Positions 28,583 to 35,490 of a DNA stretch of 37,383 bases are shown here, one piece after another; within the stretch, counting starts at the first letter, position 1; every line of letters starts with the position of its first letter. The notes beneath the pieces are model-generated. The model did not search any database. It had not been told where the DNA came from and was given only the letters and a program-made list of their open reading frames with translations. The DNA is from a virus, in the IMG/VR virus record IMGVR_UViG_3300025087_000205, positions 1 to 37,383 of that record, one strand, 5' to 3'. Both the position numbers and the translations under genes were made by a program.

Positions 28583-28602
28583 ATCGCTTCATGGAGTATC
28601 TA

Positions 28603-29703
28603 ATGAAATTCCATAAAGTATCCAACTTATTCCCAATGATGAGCAAGGATGAGTACGAAGCACTCAAAGCCGATATATCTGTCAATGGTCAGATAGAGCC
28701 GATCTGGATTTATCAGGATCAAATTATTGATGGGAGGAATAGATACAATGCCTGTAAGGAGTTAGGAGTAGAGCCGAAGTTCAAGACATGGAGTGGCAAG
28801 GGATCGCTGGTTGAGTTTGTTGTGTCGCTGAATTTGCATCGGCGACACTTGAGCAGTACGCAGAAGGCAACTATCGCAGTGGATATGTTGCCAATGTTGG
28901 GGGAAGAGACAAGAGAAAAACAGAAACTTAGTGAGGGTAGAGGAAAAAAGGTAGCCAATTCTTTGGCTACCTTATCTGACAAGGAGGCAAATAAGCAAGC
29001 ACACGAAAATACTGCTACAGAACAAGCTGCTAAACTAACAGGTACAAACCGCCAATATGTTTCCGATGCCAAGAAGATAGCCAAGAAGCGTCCCGATCTG
29101 TTCGAGAAAATGCGTTCTGGCGAAGCAACTATCTCCGAGGCTAAACGTGAGATCGTCAAATCTGAAAAGAAGCCTCCTCCAAAACTCTCTGGCCGATATT
29201 CAGTCCTCTACGCTGACCCTCCCTGGAAGTATGGCAATGCGGGCATTATCAACGATGACAACTACGGCCATGTCGAGCGTCATTATCCAAGCATGTCCAT
29301 CAAGGAACTATGTGCATTAGATATTAGGGGTGTTGTTGAGGACAATGCTGTGTTATTTCTTTGGGTTACATCACCCTTGTTGGAGGAGTGTTTCCCTGTT
29401 GTCAAAGCATGGGGTTTCAAGTATAAAACTTCGTTCGTGTGGGATAAGGTGAAGCACAATTTTGGTCACTATAATTCTGTTAGGCATGAGTTTTTGTTAG
29501 TATGTGTACGCGGAAGTTTTACACCGGAGAACAACAAGTTGTTCGATAGCGTGGTTCAAGTTGAAAGAACAAAAGAACACTCGGAGAAGCCGGAGGAATT
29601 CAGGAACATTATTGAAACACTGTATCCCTCTGCCAATAAGATAGAACTCTTTGCCCGGAAGAAGATAAAGGGCTGGAGTATATGGGGGAATGAAGATGTT
29701 TAA
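28603..29703 (+). CDS. ParB/MT-A70 DNA adenine methyltransferase
   Basis: 366 residues from ATG 28603, with GGAG 6 bases before; an in-frame ATG at 28591 is possible. The N-terminal part has a ParB/sulfiredoxin fold (VNGQIEPIWIYQDQIIDGRN, then NLHRRHLSSTQKA) and a helix-turn-helix TGTNRQYVSDAKKIA. The C-terminal part is an MT-A70 methyltransferase with motif IV DPPW at 205-208 and LFLWVTSPLLEEC. It likely puts m6A into DNA, protecting phage DNA or controlling gene expression. It overlaps a QVK-type nuclease gene. Confidence 0.9.
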   Translation: MKFHKVSNLFPMMSKDEYEALKADISVNGQIEPIWIYQDQIIDGRNRYNACKELGVEPKFKTWSGKGSLVEFVVSLNLHRRHLSSTQKATIAVDMLPMLGEETREKQKLSEGRGKKVANSLATLSDKEANKQAHENTATEQAAKLTGTNRQYVSDAKKIAKKRPDLFEKMRSGEATISEAKREIVKSEKKPPPKLSGRYSVLYADPPWKYGNAGIINDDNYGHVERHYPSMSIKELCALDIRGVVEDNAVLFLWVTSPLLEECFPVVKAWGFKYKTSFVWDKVKHNFGHYNSVRHEFLLVCVRGSFTPENNKLFDSVVQVERTKEHSEKPEEFRNIIETLYPSANKIELFARKKIKGWSIWGNEDV

Positions 29704-30290: not shown

Positions 30291-30319
30291 TTGACAACTA
30301 CCCTATATTGACATAGTAT
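30291..30319 (+). promoter_or_regulatory. Sigma70 promoter giving a leaderless transcript
   Basis: TTGACA (30291-30296), 17 bases, TAGTAT (30314-30319). The start would fall on or next to the ATG at 30326, which has no ribosome site. A second TATAGA (30317-30322) could be used with a 20-base spacer. Confidence 0.65.
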
Positions 30320-30325
30320 AGACGC

Positions 30326-30613
30326 ATGACTACTTCCATCAAGAAAACCAAGCGTAGAAAACTAATACCAATGACTCCAGATCATCCTAAATGGTCTGAG
30401 TTTATTGAGAGACTTTGTGGCTCGGAGGGATGTGATTTTCGCGGAGAGGGACTTGAGGCACAGTGGAATTGTGGTGGAGGACGCGATCAGTCAAAAGCAA
30501 CGGCCATCCTTAAGAAAATGGGGAATATCAACATAGAGGAGTCACTTGACTATTTTACTAAACATGGTGGTTATTGTGACTGTGAGATAGTATTCAATGT
30601 TGATCCCAGATAA
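30326..30613 (+). CDS. DUF2695 family protein
   Basis: 95 residues. The segment CDFRGEGLEAQWNCGGGRDQ followed by SKATAILKKMGN, then a C-terminal YFTKHGGYCDCEIVFNV, matches the DUF2695 pattern. Function unknown. The N-terminus is basic (KKTKRRK). The lack of a ribosome site together with the promoter spacing suggests translation of a leaderless message. It is the first gene of the accessory/lysis operon. Confidence 0.75.
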   Translation: MTTSIKKTKRRKLIPMTPDHPKWSEFIERLCGSEGCDFRGEGLEAQWNCGGGRDQSKATAILKKMGNINIEESLDYFTKHGGYCDCEIVFNVDPR

Positions 30614-30821
30614 GAAGATGGATGCTGGAAACCTCAACCTTCGCATGGACAGCAAGACGGCGAAGAAACTGGACTGGCTGGCTAGAGTTTCCAGTTGGCC
30701 GAAGAGCATGATCGTGCGTGTTTTGATACGCAAGGCGCAACCCCGCGATTTGGCAATTCCCGACGAAGACGCAATGCTCTTACCGAAAAAGCCAAAGAAT
30801 GACCTCAAAAACGAACCTTGA
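30597..30821 (+). CDS. Ribbon-helix-helix DNA-binding protein
   Basis: 74 residues as called; an internal ATG at 30618 is also plausible. NLNLRMDSKTAKKLDWLARV followed by KSMIVRVLIRKA is the ribbon-helix-helix layout of small repressors. It probably regulates phage transcription, perhaps the nearby promoters with tandem repeats. It overlaps the DUF2695 gene and the lipoprotein gene. Confidence 0.65.
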   Translation: MLIPDKKMDAGNLNLRMDSKTAKKLDWLARVSSWPKSMIVRVLIRKAQPRDLAIPDEDAMLLPKKPKNDLKNEP

Positions 30822-31254
30822 CCGTCTGGTGGTCATCCTGGGCATGGTTTTTGCCTTTTCAATAGTGTCCCTGGCGTGTCTTGCGCCAGGAATAACGCCT
30901 ACCCTACCCCTCCCCACACCGCGAGTGACAACGCCAACTCTTAGCACTACTTCTACCCAAGTTCTAACCGAGACGATTTATGTCAACGTGCCTACACGCA
31001 CTTCGACTAGCACGCTGACTTCGTTGCCATTGAAGACACGCACGCCAACGCCAAGCAAGGTATCATCGTTGCCGACAATACTTCCAAGTGCTACGCCAAT
31101 GGTATATGTTGTGCAACGAGGAGATACGCTGTCGAGTATTGCGGTGAGGTTTTGTGGTAGGCAAGAGGCATGGCCTCGGCTGGCACAGATGAACGACATA
31201 GGTGATCCAAACCAGTTACTTGTTGGACAGACATTGCTTATTGAGTGCGGATAG
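30799..31254 (+). CDS. Phage lipoprotein with LysM domain
   Basis: 151 residues. A signal peptide with hydrophobic core VVILGMVFAFSIV ends in the lipobox SLAC (Cys 27). A long Thr/Pro/Ser-rich linker follows (about 30-100), then a LysM domain VYVVQRGDTLSSIAVRF ... WPRLAQMNDIGDPNQL that binds peptidoglycan or chitin-like sugars. It would be anchored to the cytoplasmic membrane or outer leaflet and bind the wall; possible roles are lysis or superinfection exclusion. The T/P linker is usual in Chloroflexota exported proteins. Confidence 0.75.
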   Translation: MTSKTNLDRLVVILGMVFAFSIVSLACLAPGITPTLPLPTPRVTTPTLSTTSTQVLTETIYVNVPTRTSTSTLTSLPLKTRTPTPSKVSSLPTILPSATPMVYVVQRGDTLSSIAVRFCGRQEAWPRLAQMNDIGDPNQLLVGQTLLIECG

Positions 31255-31274: not shown

Positions 31275-31466
31275 ATGCACCCCACCATTTTTGCAACACT
31301 GTGCGAGGCTATTGAGAATTGGATGTCCAACCACTGCGAAGATTCGGAATGGCCCGATACATGGTTTCCCGAAGACCTTGCTATTGATATGGCAAAGAGT
31401 GCCCGATTGGTATTTGACGCTTCGATAAAGTCTTCTGAGTTTACTCAAGGTCAAATTGTGAAATGA
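31275..31466 (+). CDS. Hypothetical small protein
   Basis: 63 residues from ATG 31275 (AGGAGAAAAGAG in front). Trp- and Asp-rich start (ENWMSNHCEDSEWPDTWFP) then a helical end. No family recognised. It overlaps the next gene by four bases, so it belongs to the operon of lysis-type genes. Confidence 0.55.
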   Translation: MHPTIFATLCEAIENWMSNHCEDSEWPDTWFPEDLAIDMAKSARLVFDASIKSSEFTQGQIVK

Positions 31467-31747
31467 CCATTGCGGAGATAACCGAGACGCTAGAACAATA
31501 CCTGACGCACCTAGAGCGTATCTCGGTGATCATCGAGCGTTGGGCAAAAGGTTACAACACGACAATAAAGTTCGTGCTTGCCATTGCGTTTTCCATGTCC
31601 CCTGATCAGTTGGATAAACTGTCAAACATGGCTCAGGTAATGGATCATTGTCGTGAGGAGATGATCGAGGCGCTAGAGAACGTGGCACAGGACGTAACGA
31701 AGATGGGGAAATTCTTTCTTGAGTTTGAAAAGGAGAATACGAAATGA
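31463..31747 (+). CDS. Hypothetical helical protein
   Basis: 94 residues. A helix with LEQYLTHLERISVIIERWAK, a short hydrophobic run FVLAIAFSMS, and a C-terminal coiled coil ending FLEFEKENTK. Starts and ends with four-base overlaps to its neighbours. It might assist the adjacent holin-like protein. Function unknown. Confidence 0.5.
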   Translation: MTIAEITETLEQYLTHLERISVIIERWAKGYNTTIKFVLAIAFSMSPDQLDKLSNMAQVMDHCREEMIEALENVAQDVTKMGKFFLEFEKENTK

Positions 31748-32106
31748 CAACTGAACAAGTCCAACAACTCATTAATCTCGTGATACAAATTGGGGGTGCG
31801 CTGGCCGAAAAGGGGTTTATTCTAGCACACAAACAAGTGGTTATGGAGGCCATTGCAGACATTGTTGCACTGGCGTTGGTGCTTGTGGCGATGATCGTTG
31901 GAAGCAGAATTGCTCTAGCGATGGCTAGGAAACATGATGAGCAAGGAGGTTTTGGGGATGATAGTCTGCTCCCTGTTGTTGTCACAATTGGGATCGCATG
32001 GTTATTCTACATGGTTGTCTTTATTCTCTTGGTAACGCAAAGTATCAAAGTGCTTCTCAACCCAGATTGGTATGCGGTGAAACTCTTGATGGAACTTCTT
32101 AAATAA
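31744..32106 (+). CDS. Holin-like membrane protein
   Basis: 120 residues with two membrane segments: IVALALVLVAMIVGSRIALA (about 39-58) and LLPVVVTIGIAWLFYMVVFI. A charged loop lies between. This topology and its operon position next to a LysM lipoprotein support a holin or antiholin that opens the membrane for lysis. It is also compatible with another small membrane function. Confidence 0.6.
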   Translation: MTTEQVQQLINLVIQIGGALAEKGFILAHKQVVMEAIADIVALALVLVAMIVGSRIALAMARKHDEQGGFGDDSLLPVVVTIGIAWLFYMVVFILLVTQSIKVLLNPDWYAVKLLMELLK

Positions 32107-32131
32107 AACAGAAGCATAAGGAGAATACGAA

Positions 32132-32380
32132 ATGACAAGTGACAAAGATGGCGAAATAATGTACGAGGTCGATCATAAAAGACTTGAAAAGGACTTTACC
32201 TATCACGCGCCTAATTCAGAACAGTCAGCCCGCTATAACGCAATACGTTCAGCGGCAAAACTCATGGGTGAACTTCTAATGAGTTCATGTCCTCTGAGTC
32301 GTGAATTGTCTGTGGCATTGACAAAATTGGATGAGACAGTGATGTTTGCCAATGCTGCAATTGCAAGAAACGAATCATAG
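32132..32380 (+). CDS. acb2: Acb2-like cyclic-nucleotide sponge (anti-CBASS)
   Basis: 82 residues, AAGGAG before ATG. Layout matches Acb2/Vs.4 (short phage proteins that sequester cyclic nucleotides made by CBASS and related defences): basic start, FTYHAPN (22-28), a helix RYNAIRSAAKLMGELL, a CP pair at 53-54, and a C-terminal helix with ALTKLDETVMFANAAIARN. The W/F-A-N-A-A-I-A-R ending is a hallmark of the family. It would bind signalling nucleotides in the cytoplasm and block abortive infection. The family match is by pattern; affinity and nucleotide are not predictable. Confidence 0.8.
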   Translation: MTSDKDGEIMYEVDHKRLEKDFTYHAPNSEQSARYNAIRSAAKLMGELLMSSCPLSRELSVALTKLDETVMFANAAIARNES

Positions 32381-32392
32381 GGAGAATGTAAA

Positions 32393-33055
32393 ATGAAATG
32401 GCTTGATCTCAACCGTGACGGGCGGGTGAACACCGCCGACCTGCTTATCGGCATTGTGTACCTGTGTGCGGCCATTCTTGGTCTAACACTGATGTTCAGC
32501 ACATGGGCACGCTCGTTTCATTTGCTCAGTTCACCGCAGATGAATCCCGGTGTGTTCTCATTGTGGCCTTGGATCACCTCACTCTCGCCAGAGGCGGGCT
32601 TTTTGCTGGCGTACTTCTGTATGCACGCCGGCATTCGCAAGCAATACCTCACCGGCATTGCGCTTGGCGTCATCGGAATGGTGCTCTTCGGCTTGGTGAT
32701 CGGCACAATGCAGTGGTATGACGTTGAACTTGTGCGTGGCGCATCGTTAGCCGAGGTGGGAAAGTGGGCTGACTACGTTGCGACATTCGTTGCGCTCATT
32801 ACCATTGGATACGCGGCAGTGGTAACGGGTGTCATTGAGTACATCAACATTGATAGTCGCTCGGCTGGTGGAAGCACGTATACCTCTGCCAGACCTATTG
32901 TGAAGGCAACCGTGCCGCGCATGAGTTTGCCAGAGGGTGATGAGCAATTAGAGGAATTGAAGTTCATCGCACCTCAAAGCACGAGTAAGGGAAACGGAGC
33001 AGGGGAGGATCATCCCCAACAAGCAAATTTTCAGCGACCGCCAGTCCGCCGATAA
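32393..33055 (+). CDS. Membrane protein with dockerin-like calcium loop
   Basis: 220 residues. The N-terminal DLNRDGRVNTADLLIG matches a dockerin/EF-hand calcium loop (D-x-N-x-D-G-x-V). Several membrane segments follow (IVYLCAAILGLTLMF, AGFLLAYFCMHAG, ALGVIGMVLFGLVIG, ATFVALITIGYAAVV), then an acidic, disordered C-terminal tail. No known function; possibly a membrane-associated phage protein for lysis control or superinfection. It lies right after the Acb2-like gene, with good translation signals (GGGAG). Confidence 0.6.
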   Translation: MKWLDLNRDGRVNTADLLIGIVYLCAAILGLTLMFSTWARSFHLLSSPQMNPGVFSLWPWITSLSPEAGFLLAYFCMHAGIRKQYLTGIALGVIGMVLFGLVIGTMQWYDVELVRGASLAEVGKWADYVATFVALITIGYAAVVTGVIEYINIDSRSAGGSTYTSARPIVKATVPRMSLPEGDEQLEELKFIAPQSTSKGNGAGEDHPQQANFQRPPVRR

Positions 33056-33613: not shown

Positions 33614-33994
33614 ATGGACATCCTCAACCTCGTAGACTGGACTCTCGTACAGGCGTTTCTCACCAACGTTTTGACTACGCTACTTATTACTGCGCTTGGC
33701 TTTGTCGTAGCGTACGTGCAGAAGAAACTCGCGCTGGTCAAGGCACAAGTCAATGTCGATCAATGGGAGTTCATCGAGCAGGTGGTTGGCGCGGCAGTCA
33801 AAGTAGCCGAGCAGACCGAACTGGCGCGCAAGGTCACCCTCGCTGGCGCTGAGAAGAAGGCCATTGCTCTGCAATATGCGCAGACTGCACTCGACTCCTA
33901 CGGCGTGAAAGTGAACGTGACCACGCTGGAAGGTGCAATTGAGAAGGCCGTTCTGGAACACTTCAACTGGGGTCGGCTGAATCCGCCAGACTAA
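33614..33994 (+). CDS. Holin, LLH family
   Basis: 126 residues. One N-terminal membrane segment (LTNVLTTLLITALGFVVAYV, about 16-35) followed by a long, charged helix and a C-terminal part like phage holins of the LLH type (YAQTALDSYGVKVNVTTLEG, AIEKAVLEHFNWG). It should act in the cytoplasmic membrane for lysis. Upstream promoter and tandem repeats may time its expression. Another holin-like gene lies at 31744. Confidence 0.75.
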   Translation: MDILNLVDWTLVQAFLTNVLTTLLITALGFVVAYVQKKLALVKAQVNVDQWEFIEQVVGAAVKVAEQTELARKVTLAGAEKKAIALQYAQTALDSYGVKVNVTTLEGAIEKAVLEHFNWGRLNPPD

Positions 33995-34039: not shown

Positions 34040-34081
34040 GGCGGCAGAATAGTAATTGTTCTGCCGCCATTGTTATTTATT
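34040..34081 (+). terminator. Intrinsic terminator after holin
   Basis: GGCGGCAGAA (34040-34049) pairs perfectly with TTCTGCCGCC (34059-34068), then ATTGTTATTTATT. It ends the lysis transcript shortly before the next gene. Confidence 0.8.
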
Positions 34082-34410: not shown

Positions 34411-35490
34411 TTGATAAAACAAAACTGGAAGTCCATCATCCCCGCGCTCAAAATGTCGGGGGAGGACTACATCCGCCAGAATGCAATGCGCATGACCGAC
34501 CACGACATTGTTCATCGTCTAGCCTCCGCTGGCGTAACGACTACCGTAGTCGCAATTGAGAAGCACCGTTACCGTATGGGCATTATCAAAACAGGCGGCA
34601 CAAACTCACAAGTCATTGGCGAGTCTCCGTTTGTAAAATACGACTCGCCGCTTGTTATTGAGGCAGATCGCATTGCAATTCTTGGGGATATTCAGTTCCC
34701 GTATCACGAGGCAGCGTTCATCAACAAGGTATTAGACTTGTGCCGCATTTGGAATGTGCGGCACTGTGTTTTAGCGGGGGATGTGATCGAATGTGCTTCT
34801 TTGACTCACTTCGATCCCAACTGGGAGGGTGAGGGTAACTCGCACGGCATTCCCGATGAAGCACTAGACGATCTCATTGCTATCAAACAGTCTCTTGTCA
34901 AGAATAGCACGATGGCGGGGAAACTTGAGGCCATTATCGAAAAGCATGGCCGACAGGAGAAAGCCTCCGCTGGTAACGTATCCGAGGAGTGGGGGTACGC
35001 CAAGAAAGACCTCGCCAAGTTGATCCAACAATTTGATGATATTGTCTGGGAGGTCGGAAACCATGAGGGTCGTGTCTTACGCCAGATGCAGTCGCCGTTT
35101 CTTCCCGACGATCTCAAGCGCATGTTCGTGGGTGAGGAGCCAAAGGTGAGAATTGCGCCATACTACTATACACTGGCTAAGTCAAGCGGTGTAGAATGGC
35201 GCATCACCCATCCGAAGTCAAGCGCAAAGGGTGACTCGAAGTGGTACGCCAGCAAGTATCTCACGAATGTGATCATGGCACACAACCATCATCTGGTTAT
35301 GCAGCGGGATCGTAGCGGCAAGTTCTGGGCAATAGAGATCGGGTGTTGTGTTGATGAGCGAAGACTTCCATACGTTTCTCAACGTGACAGCAAGGGGGAC
35401 GCACACGTACTCGGCGCGGCTATTTTGCGTGATGGCAAATGCTGGCTGTTGCATGAGGACGTGGACTGGGAGACATTGGCAAAACTATGA
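34411..35490 (+). CDS. Calcineurin-like metallophosphoesterase
   Basis: About 359 residues from a TTG at 34411 that has GGTGG close by; an ATG at 34453 gives a shorter protein and is also possible. Metallophosphoesterase signature in order: ILGDIQFPYHE, LAGDVIE, WEVGNHEGR and late AHNHH, all metal-binding motifs. An N-terminal region MTDHDIVHRLASAGVTTTVV looks like a helix-turn-helix. It could be a nuclease or phosphatase acting on DNA or nucleotides; in phages such enzymes often join replication or defence-related roles. Confidence 0.8.
   Translation: MIKQNWKSIIPALKMSGEDYIRQNAMRMTDHDIVHRLASAGVTTTVVAIEKHRYRMGIIKTGGTNSQVIGESPFVKYDSPLVIEADRIAILGDIQFPYHEAAFINKVLDLCRIWNVRHCVLAGDVIECASLTHFDPNWEGEGNSHGIPDEALDDLIAIKQSLVKNSTMAGKLEAIIEKHGRQEKASAGNVSEEWGYAKKDLAKLIQQFDDIVWEVGNHEGRVLRQMQSPFLPDDLKRMFVGEEPKVRIAPYYYTLAKSSGVEWRITHPKSSAKGDSKWYASKYLTNVIMAHNHHLVMQRDRSGKFWAIEIGCCVDERRLPYVSQRDSKGDAHVLGAAILRDGKCWLLHEDVDWETLAKL

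Follow-up and report, generated by a model that had tools for sequence, protein, structure and literature searches.

A phage-encoded member of the Acb2 family, a probable cyclic-oligonucleotide sponge, in an uncultured tailed phage

Introduction

In T4 and Pseudomonas phages, Acb2 homologues confer protection from CBASS through sequestration (PMC10419184, PMC12043709, PMC11722364). The Acb2 protomer consists of three helices, a short one and two long antiparallel ones (PMC12043709, PMC10419184), and the Y8A substitution in T4 Acb2 has been reported to abolish cyclic dinucleotide binding (PMC12657218). Proteins of Mycobacterium and Microbacterium phages have already been annotated as Acb2-type CBASS antagonists (PMC11953737, PMC13348362). 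Here, we analysed a small gene in the IMG/VR virus record IMGVR_UViG_3300025087_000205 (37,383 nucleotides; this whole stretch is referred to as the window) and compared its product with these systems.

Results

An 82-residue acb2-like gene

An ORF of 82 residues with the layout of Acb2/Vs.4 had been predicted at 32132-32380 from the letters of the sequence, and it was found at exactly these coordinates on the + strand. Its start codon is ATG, with a strong ribosome-binding site 5' of it (AAGGAGAATACGAA-ATG). The features of the gene are as follows.

32117..32131, + strand: ribosome-binding leader before the start codon of the acb2-like gene
32132..32380, + strand: acb2-like gene, 82 aa, with the hairpin domain at residues 23-79 (PF24729, phrog_1454, AlphaFold2 model, Foldseek)
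32201..32203, + strand: codon of Tyr24, aligned with Tyr8 of T4 Vs.4 and Tyr11 of PaP2 Acb2 (alignments)
32246..32248, + strand: codon of Arg39, aligned with a Lys in T4 Vs.4 and with Lys26 in PaP2 Acb2 (alignments)

The marks on which the original prediction had relied were all present: FTYHAPN at residues 22-28, a central helix (29-52 in the model), the CP pair as C53-P54, and FANAAIARN at residues 72-80.

The segment GGAGAATACGAAATGACAA (32120-32138) is an exact 19-base copy of positions 31732-31750, the leader and start of the preceding gene. In each of these two successive genes, the repeat covers the ribosome-binding site together with the start codon (chance expectation, 0.05), which suggests a copied translation-start segment.

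Profile evidence for family membership

The 82-aa protein matched PF24729, the Acb2/Tad1 hairpin family, over the full length of the model (residues 23-79; E-value 7.6e-17). A profile search had been proposed as a check on Acb2/Vs.4 membership, and the score, 61.7 bits against a curated cut-off of 27 bits, bore that membership out, as did the fold comparison described below, with Vs.4 and Acb2 ranking at the top. The protein also matched PHROG 1454 (phrog_1454, listed as 'unknown function') with an E-value of 1.4e-20, and an NCBIfam search returned a meaningless weak match only. Against a profile built from 69 relatives with the protein itself left out, the protein scored 111.5 bits; when 100 windows were codon-shuffled, the best of the roughly 86,000 peptides that they yielded scored 13.6 bits against the same profile. 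No PF24729 match was found in 14 well-known control genomes, and matches were obtained in the record of the window, in all seven relatives checked, and in 70 of the 70 members of the deep alignment. Relatives were found in 132 phage records and in at least 310 stretches of viral contigs. The 82-aa protein is a member of the Acb2/Tad1-hairpin family.

Although the protein is short, alanine-rich and helical, as might be expected of a small helical ORF resembling the family by chance, the leave-out and shuffle scores, the empty control genomes and the number of relatives make such a coincidence negligible. We regard a chance match as ruled out by the PF24729 match, the shuffle control and the control genomes.

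Predicted structure

An AlphaFold2 monomer model, computed with 70 sequences, had a pLDDT of 89 and contained three helices at residues 3-21, 29-52 and 57-80, of which the N-terminal one is longer and less confident. This predicted three-helix arrangement fits the described Acb2 protomer. A Foldseek search of 350,542 PDB chains placed T4 Vs.4 with cGAMP at ranks 1-3 (probability 0.99-1.00) and the Acb2 structures 8h2x/8h2j in the top ten, or at ranks 4-6 when a shallower model was used. The Foldseek E-values were weak (best 0.06) and the TM-scores moderate (0.5-0.6), which is usual for small proteins made of helices, so the fold match backs the sequence result and does not stand alone. An N-terminal beta-sheet domain, the mark of Tad1, was absent from the protein, which has 82 residues and only helices in the model. 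This layout points to Acb2 rather than Tad1, and Tad1 was rejected as the family of the protein on the same ground.

Pocket residues and conservation

Arg39 and N74 were invariant among 86 aligned sequences, and Y24 (95%), H25, P27, E58, A62 and T64 were each conserved in at least 95% of them. The SRE...A..T...ANAAIAR core was near-invariant in the same alignment. Y24 occupies the position of the stacking tyrosine of the dinucleotide pocket (Y8 in T4, Y11 in PaP2), as judged by alignment, and R39 supplies a basic residue at the site of PaP2 K26, which we take to be a ligand-binding residue. For this comparison, PaP2 gp26 was taken as the Pseudomonas-phage Acb2; its alignment, which places Y11 on Y24 and K26 on R39, is weak (9 bits). 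A strong Vs.4 match was obtained when T4 was included in the alignment, and it was not counted because it is circular; the T4-free profile and the Foldseek results were used instead. With the family profile that lacked T4, Vs.4 scored 17 bits and its tyrosine lined up.

Genome and local context

The gene is phage-encoded: the window is a virus record of a tailed phage and contains a major capsid protein gene at 904-1827. A second contig, L107 (IMGVR_UViG_3300025117_000241), is 99.99% identical to the window over 11.8 kb and adds 6 kb of the genome on the upstream side; this added part carries genes that, by their translations, are of terminase and portal type. The capsid protein has relatives in Verrucomicrobia, Sumerlaeota and Gemmatimonadota bins (32-47% identity), and phage matches to the capsid and methylase are scattered across many hosts. 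The gene order in the window is head, tail, DNA metabolism, a small-gene block starting at 30326, and holin. The following features lie around the acb2-like gene.

From 22929: AAA/Sak4-like gene
From 26415: DinG-like helicase gene
28591-29703: MT-A70 methyltransferase whose N-terminal part is ParB-like (phrog_359, phrog_4715)
30291..30319, + strand: match to a sigma-70-like promoter, TTGACA-17-TAGTAT, located in the gap that precedes the small-gene block (consensus match only)
30799-31254: putative secreted lipoprotein that has a linker rich in Thr and Pro and, at its C-terminus, a LysM domain (PF01476, E-value 2.6e-11)
31463..31747, + strand: 94-aa protein, upstream in the unit of the acb2-like gene, with no significant family in Pfam or PHROG
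31744..32106, + strand: small membrane protein of 120 aa (phrog_1486, E-value 5.9e-10)
32393..33055, + strand: putative membrane protein of 220 aa, with no relative in viral contigs
33614..33994, + strand: holin of superfamily 6 (Holin_LLH; PF09682, E-value 8.6e-13)
34040..34068, + strand: terminator-like hairpin of 13 pairs, just 3' of the holin gene (consensus match only)

No endolysin was identified among the window genes scanned. The promoter-like match at 30291-30319 and the terminator-like hairpin at 34040-34068 suggest, as matches to consensus only, a single transcription unit, in which the sponge gene and the holin gene are probably included. The original description of the surroundings as a lysis-type operon was therefore fair as to the unit shared with the holin, but the methylase gene ends only about 2.4 kb before the acb2-like gene, and the immediate neighbours of the latter are small membrane proteins. 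The accompanying statement that the gene does not lie with early genes was right in part, since the gene stands between the replication and methylase genes and the holin.

Location of the gene in relatives

Such a location had been called unexpected for an anti-defence gene. We found it not to be odd: the gene lies between DNA-metabolism genes and the holin, and its relatives frequently adjoin portal, terminase, head or tail genes. The relative in Gordonia phage Schomber follows the portal gene, those in Arthrobacter phage Jasmine and Mycobacterium phage MalagasyRose precede the terminase, and that in Paenibacillus phage Sitara is surrounded by late-regulator and DNA-metabolism genes. In viral contigs, the families most often hit by the 104 neighbours on the same strand were portal, terminase and head morphogenesis, though each in only a few members. 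None of the neighbours of the window gene recurred beside any of more than 80 relatives, and a conserved neighbourhood was dropped as a clue to a partner. The acb2-like gene behaves as free-standing cargo moving between phages.

Related genes with missing or wrong labels

Cyanophage S-2L carries an Acb2-type hairpin gene between two tail genes (L009:3998-4207, corresponding to about 35,202-35,411 of MW334946.1; PF24729 E-value 2.7e-20). This gene is unannotated, and the deposited record has no gene over most of the stretch. Proteins of the Acb2 family are often labelled 'hypothetical protein' or 'phosphomannomutase'; the latter label, carried by many of those from bee-associated Paenibacillus and Brevibacillus phages, is wrong by profile. 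Two genes (L104:4973-5575 and L079:5950-6474) encode the Acb2 hairpin followed by about 100-130 additional residues, and the L104 tail resembles an Ig-type beta sandwich by eye, which Pfam does not confirm. A 643-aa 'fusion' at a further locus (L063) was set aside as a probable artefact of a stop-free, GC-rich upstream frame.

Discussion

Proposed function

We propose, with a probability of about 0.85, that the 82-aa protein, a family member by profile and fold, is a phage-encoded Acb2-family sponge of cyclic oligonucleotides; we infer ligand binding, oligomeric state and specificity from its characterized relatives. By analogy with T4 Vs.4 and Pseudomonas-phage Acb2, the protein would form a compact homo-oligomer, most likely a hexamer. 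Cyclic dinucleotides would be held in clefts between protomers, and cyclic trinucleotides possibly in a central channel; the bound molecules would be sequestered, not cleaved. On the established biology of the family, sequestration of the cyclic oligonucleotides made by CD-NTases would prevent effector activation, so that CBASS-type effectors would stay inactive until lysis, and type III CRISPR effectors relying on these signals may also be kept inactive. In a host possessing a Panoptes-type guard, the sponge could just as well set that guard off (PMC12657218).

The most serious competing view, itself unlikely, concerns the ligand. PF24729 spans both Acb2 and Tad1, and Tad1 sequences also carry the second helix motif, SRE..ALT..EEA.MW.N; the natural target might therefore be gcADPR of Thoeris, through a Tad1-like use of the hairpin, or a cyclic oligoadenylate from a different signalling system, instead of a CBASS nucleotide. 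However, the model is all helices and has no Tad1-type N-terminal beta domain, the Tad1 alignment is limited to the last helix, and by fold Tad1 ranks below both Vs.4 and Acb2. The residue that we presume to be the gcADPR-holding arginine of Tad1's last helix aligns with an alanine in the 82-aa protein, which also counts against gcADPR. A little more doubtful again is that the hairpin fold has been retained for another role, for instance as a virion component, as a factor in lysis timing or as a partner of the adjoining membrane proteins. The holin at the end of the block, the structural genes that often adjoin the relatives and the extra domains of a few members (L104, L079) could be read in this way, but the neighbours differ in every relative, so that no fixed partnership is seen, and both the pocket tyrosine and the basic residue are conserved in phages unrelated to one another.

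Returning to the sponge reading, a refinement of it concerns timing. It is conceivable, at rather long odds, that sub-branch members whose genes are grouped with late or packaging genes are produced late, or even packaged into the virion, and that the sponge would then counter late-infection signals or enter with the DNA, instead of acting as an early protein. The frequent siting beside structural genes poses a small puzzle as to when such sponges are made. The gene described here extends the reach of Acb2-type sponges by one more environmental phage lineage, and the Acb2-type clade occurs widely, passes between phages that are unrelated and is often masked by a 'hypothetical protein' or wrong 'phosphomannomutase' label.

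Comparison with known systems

Tad1 has in common with the 82-aa protein the hairpin model PF24729 and the last-helix motif; it differs by its own N-terminal beta domain, and the solved Tad1 chains have 123-138 residues. T4 Vs.4 (Acb2; PDB 7uq2) is the best fold match, with three helices in common and Tyr8 corresponding to Tyr24, whereas sequence identity is about 23% and Vs.4 has about 20 extra residues between the two conserved helix motifs. Acb2 of Pseudomonas phages PaP2/PaMx33 (8h2j, 8h2x) matches by fold, and its Y11/K26 align with Y24/R39, but identity is about 15% and its hairpin is longer. Both are thus remote, at about 15-25% identity. The closest solved relative by sequence is Acb2 homolog 43 (9ptq; E-value 2.3e-6 with a small profile without T4), which is also remote and has F-D-T-H in place of F-T-Y-H, with no tyrosine at the aligned site. 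Much closer are the uncharacterised PHROG 1454/PF24729 proteins of Paenibacillus, Gordonia, Mycobacterium, Brevibacillus, Arthrobacter and uncultured phages, which reach 45-60% identity in the closest cases and are alike in length class and motif set. Compared with these, the 82-aa protein has a slightly longer N-terminal helix, unrelated gene neighbours, and two unusual residues, G46 (A in 97%) and F72 (W in most). The family, the fold and the function class are already known; what is new is another member, in an uncultured phage.
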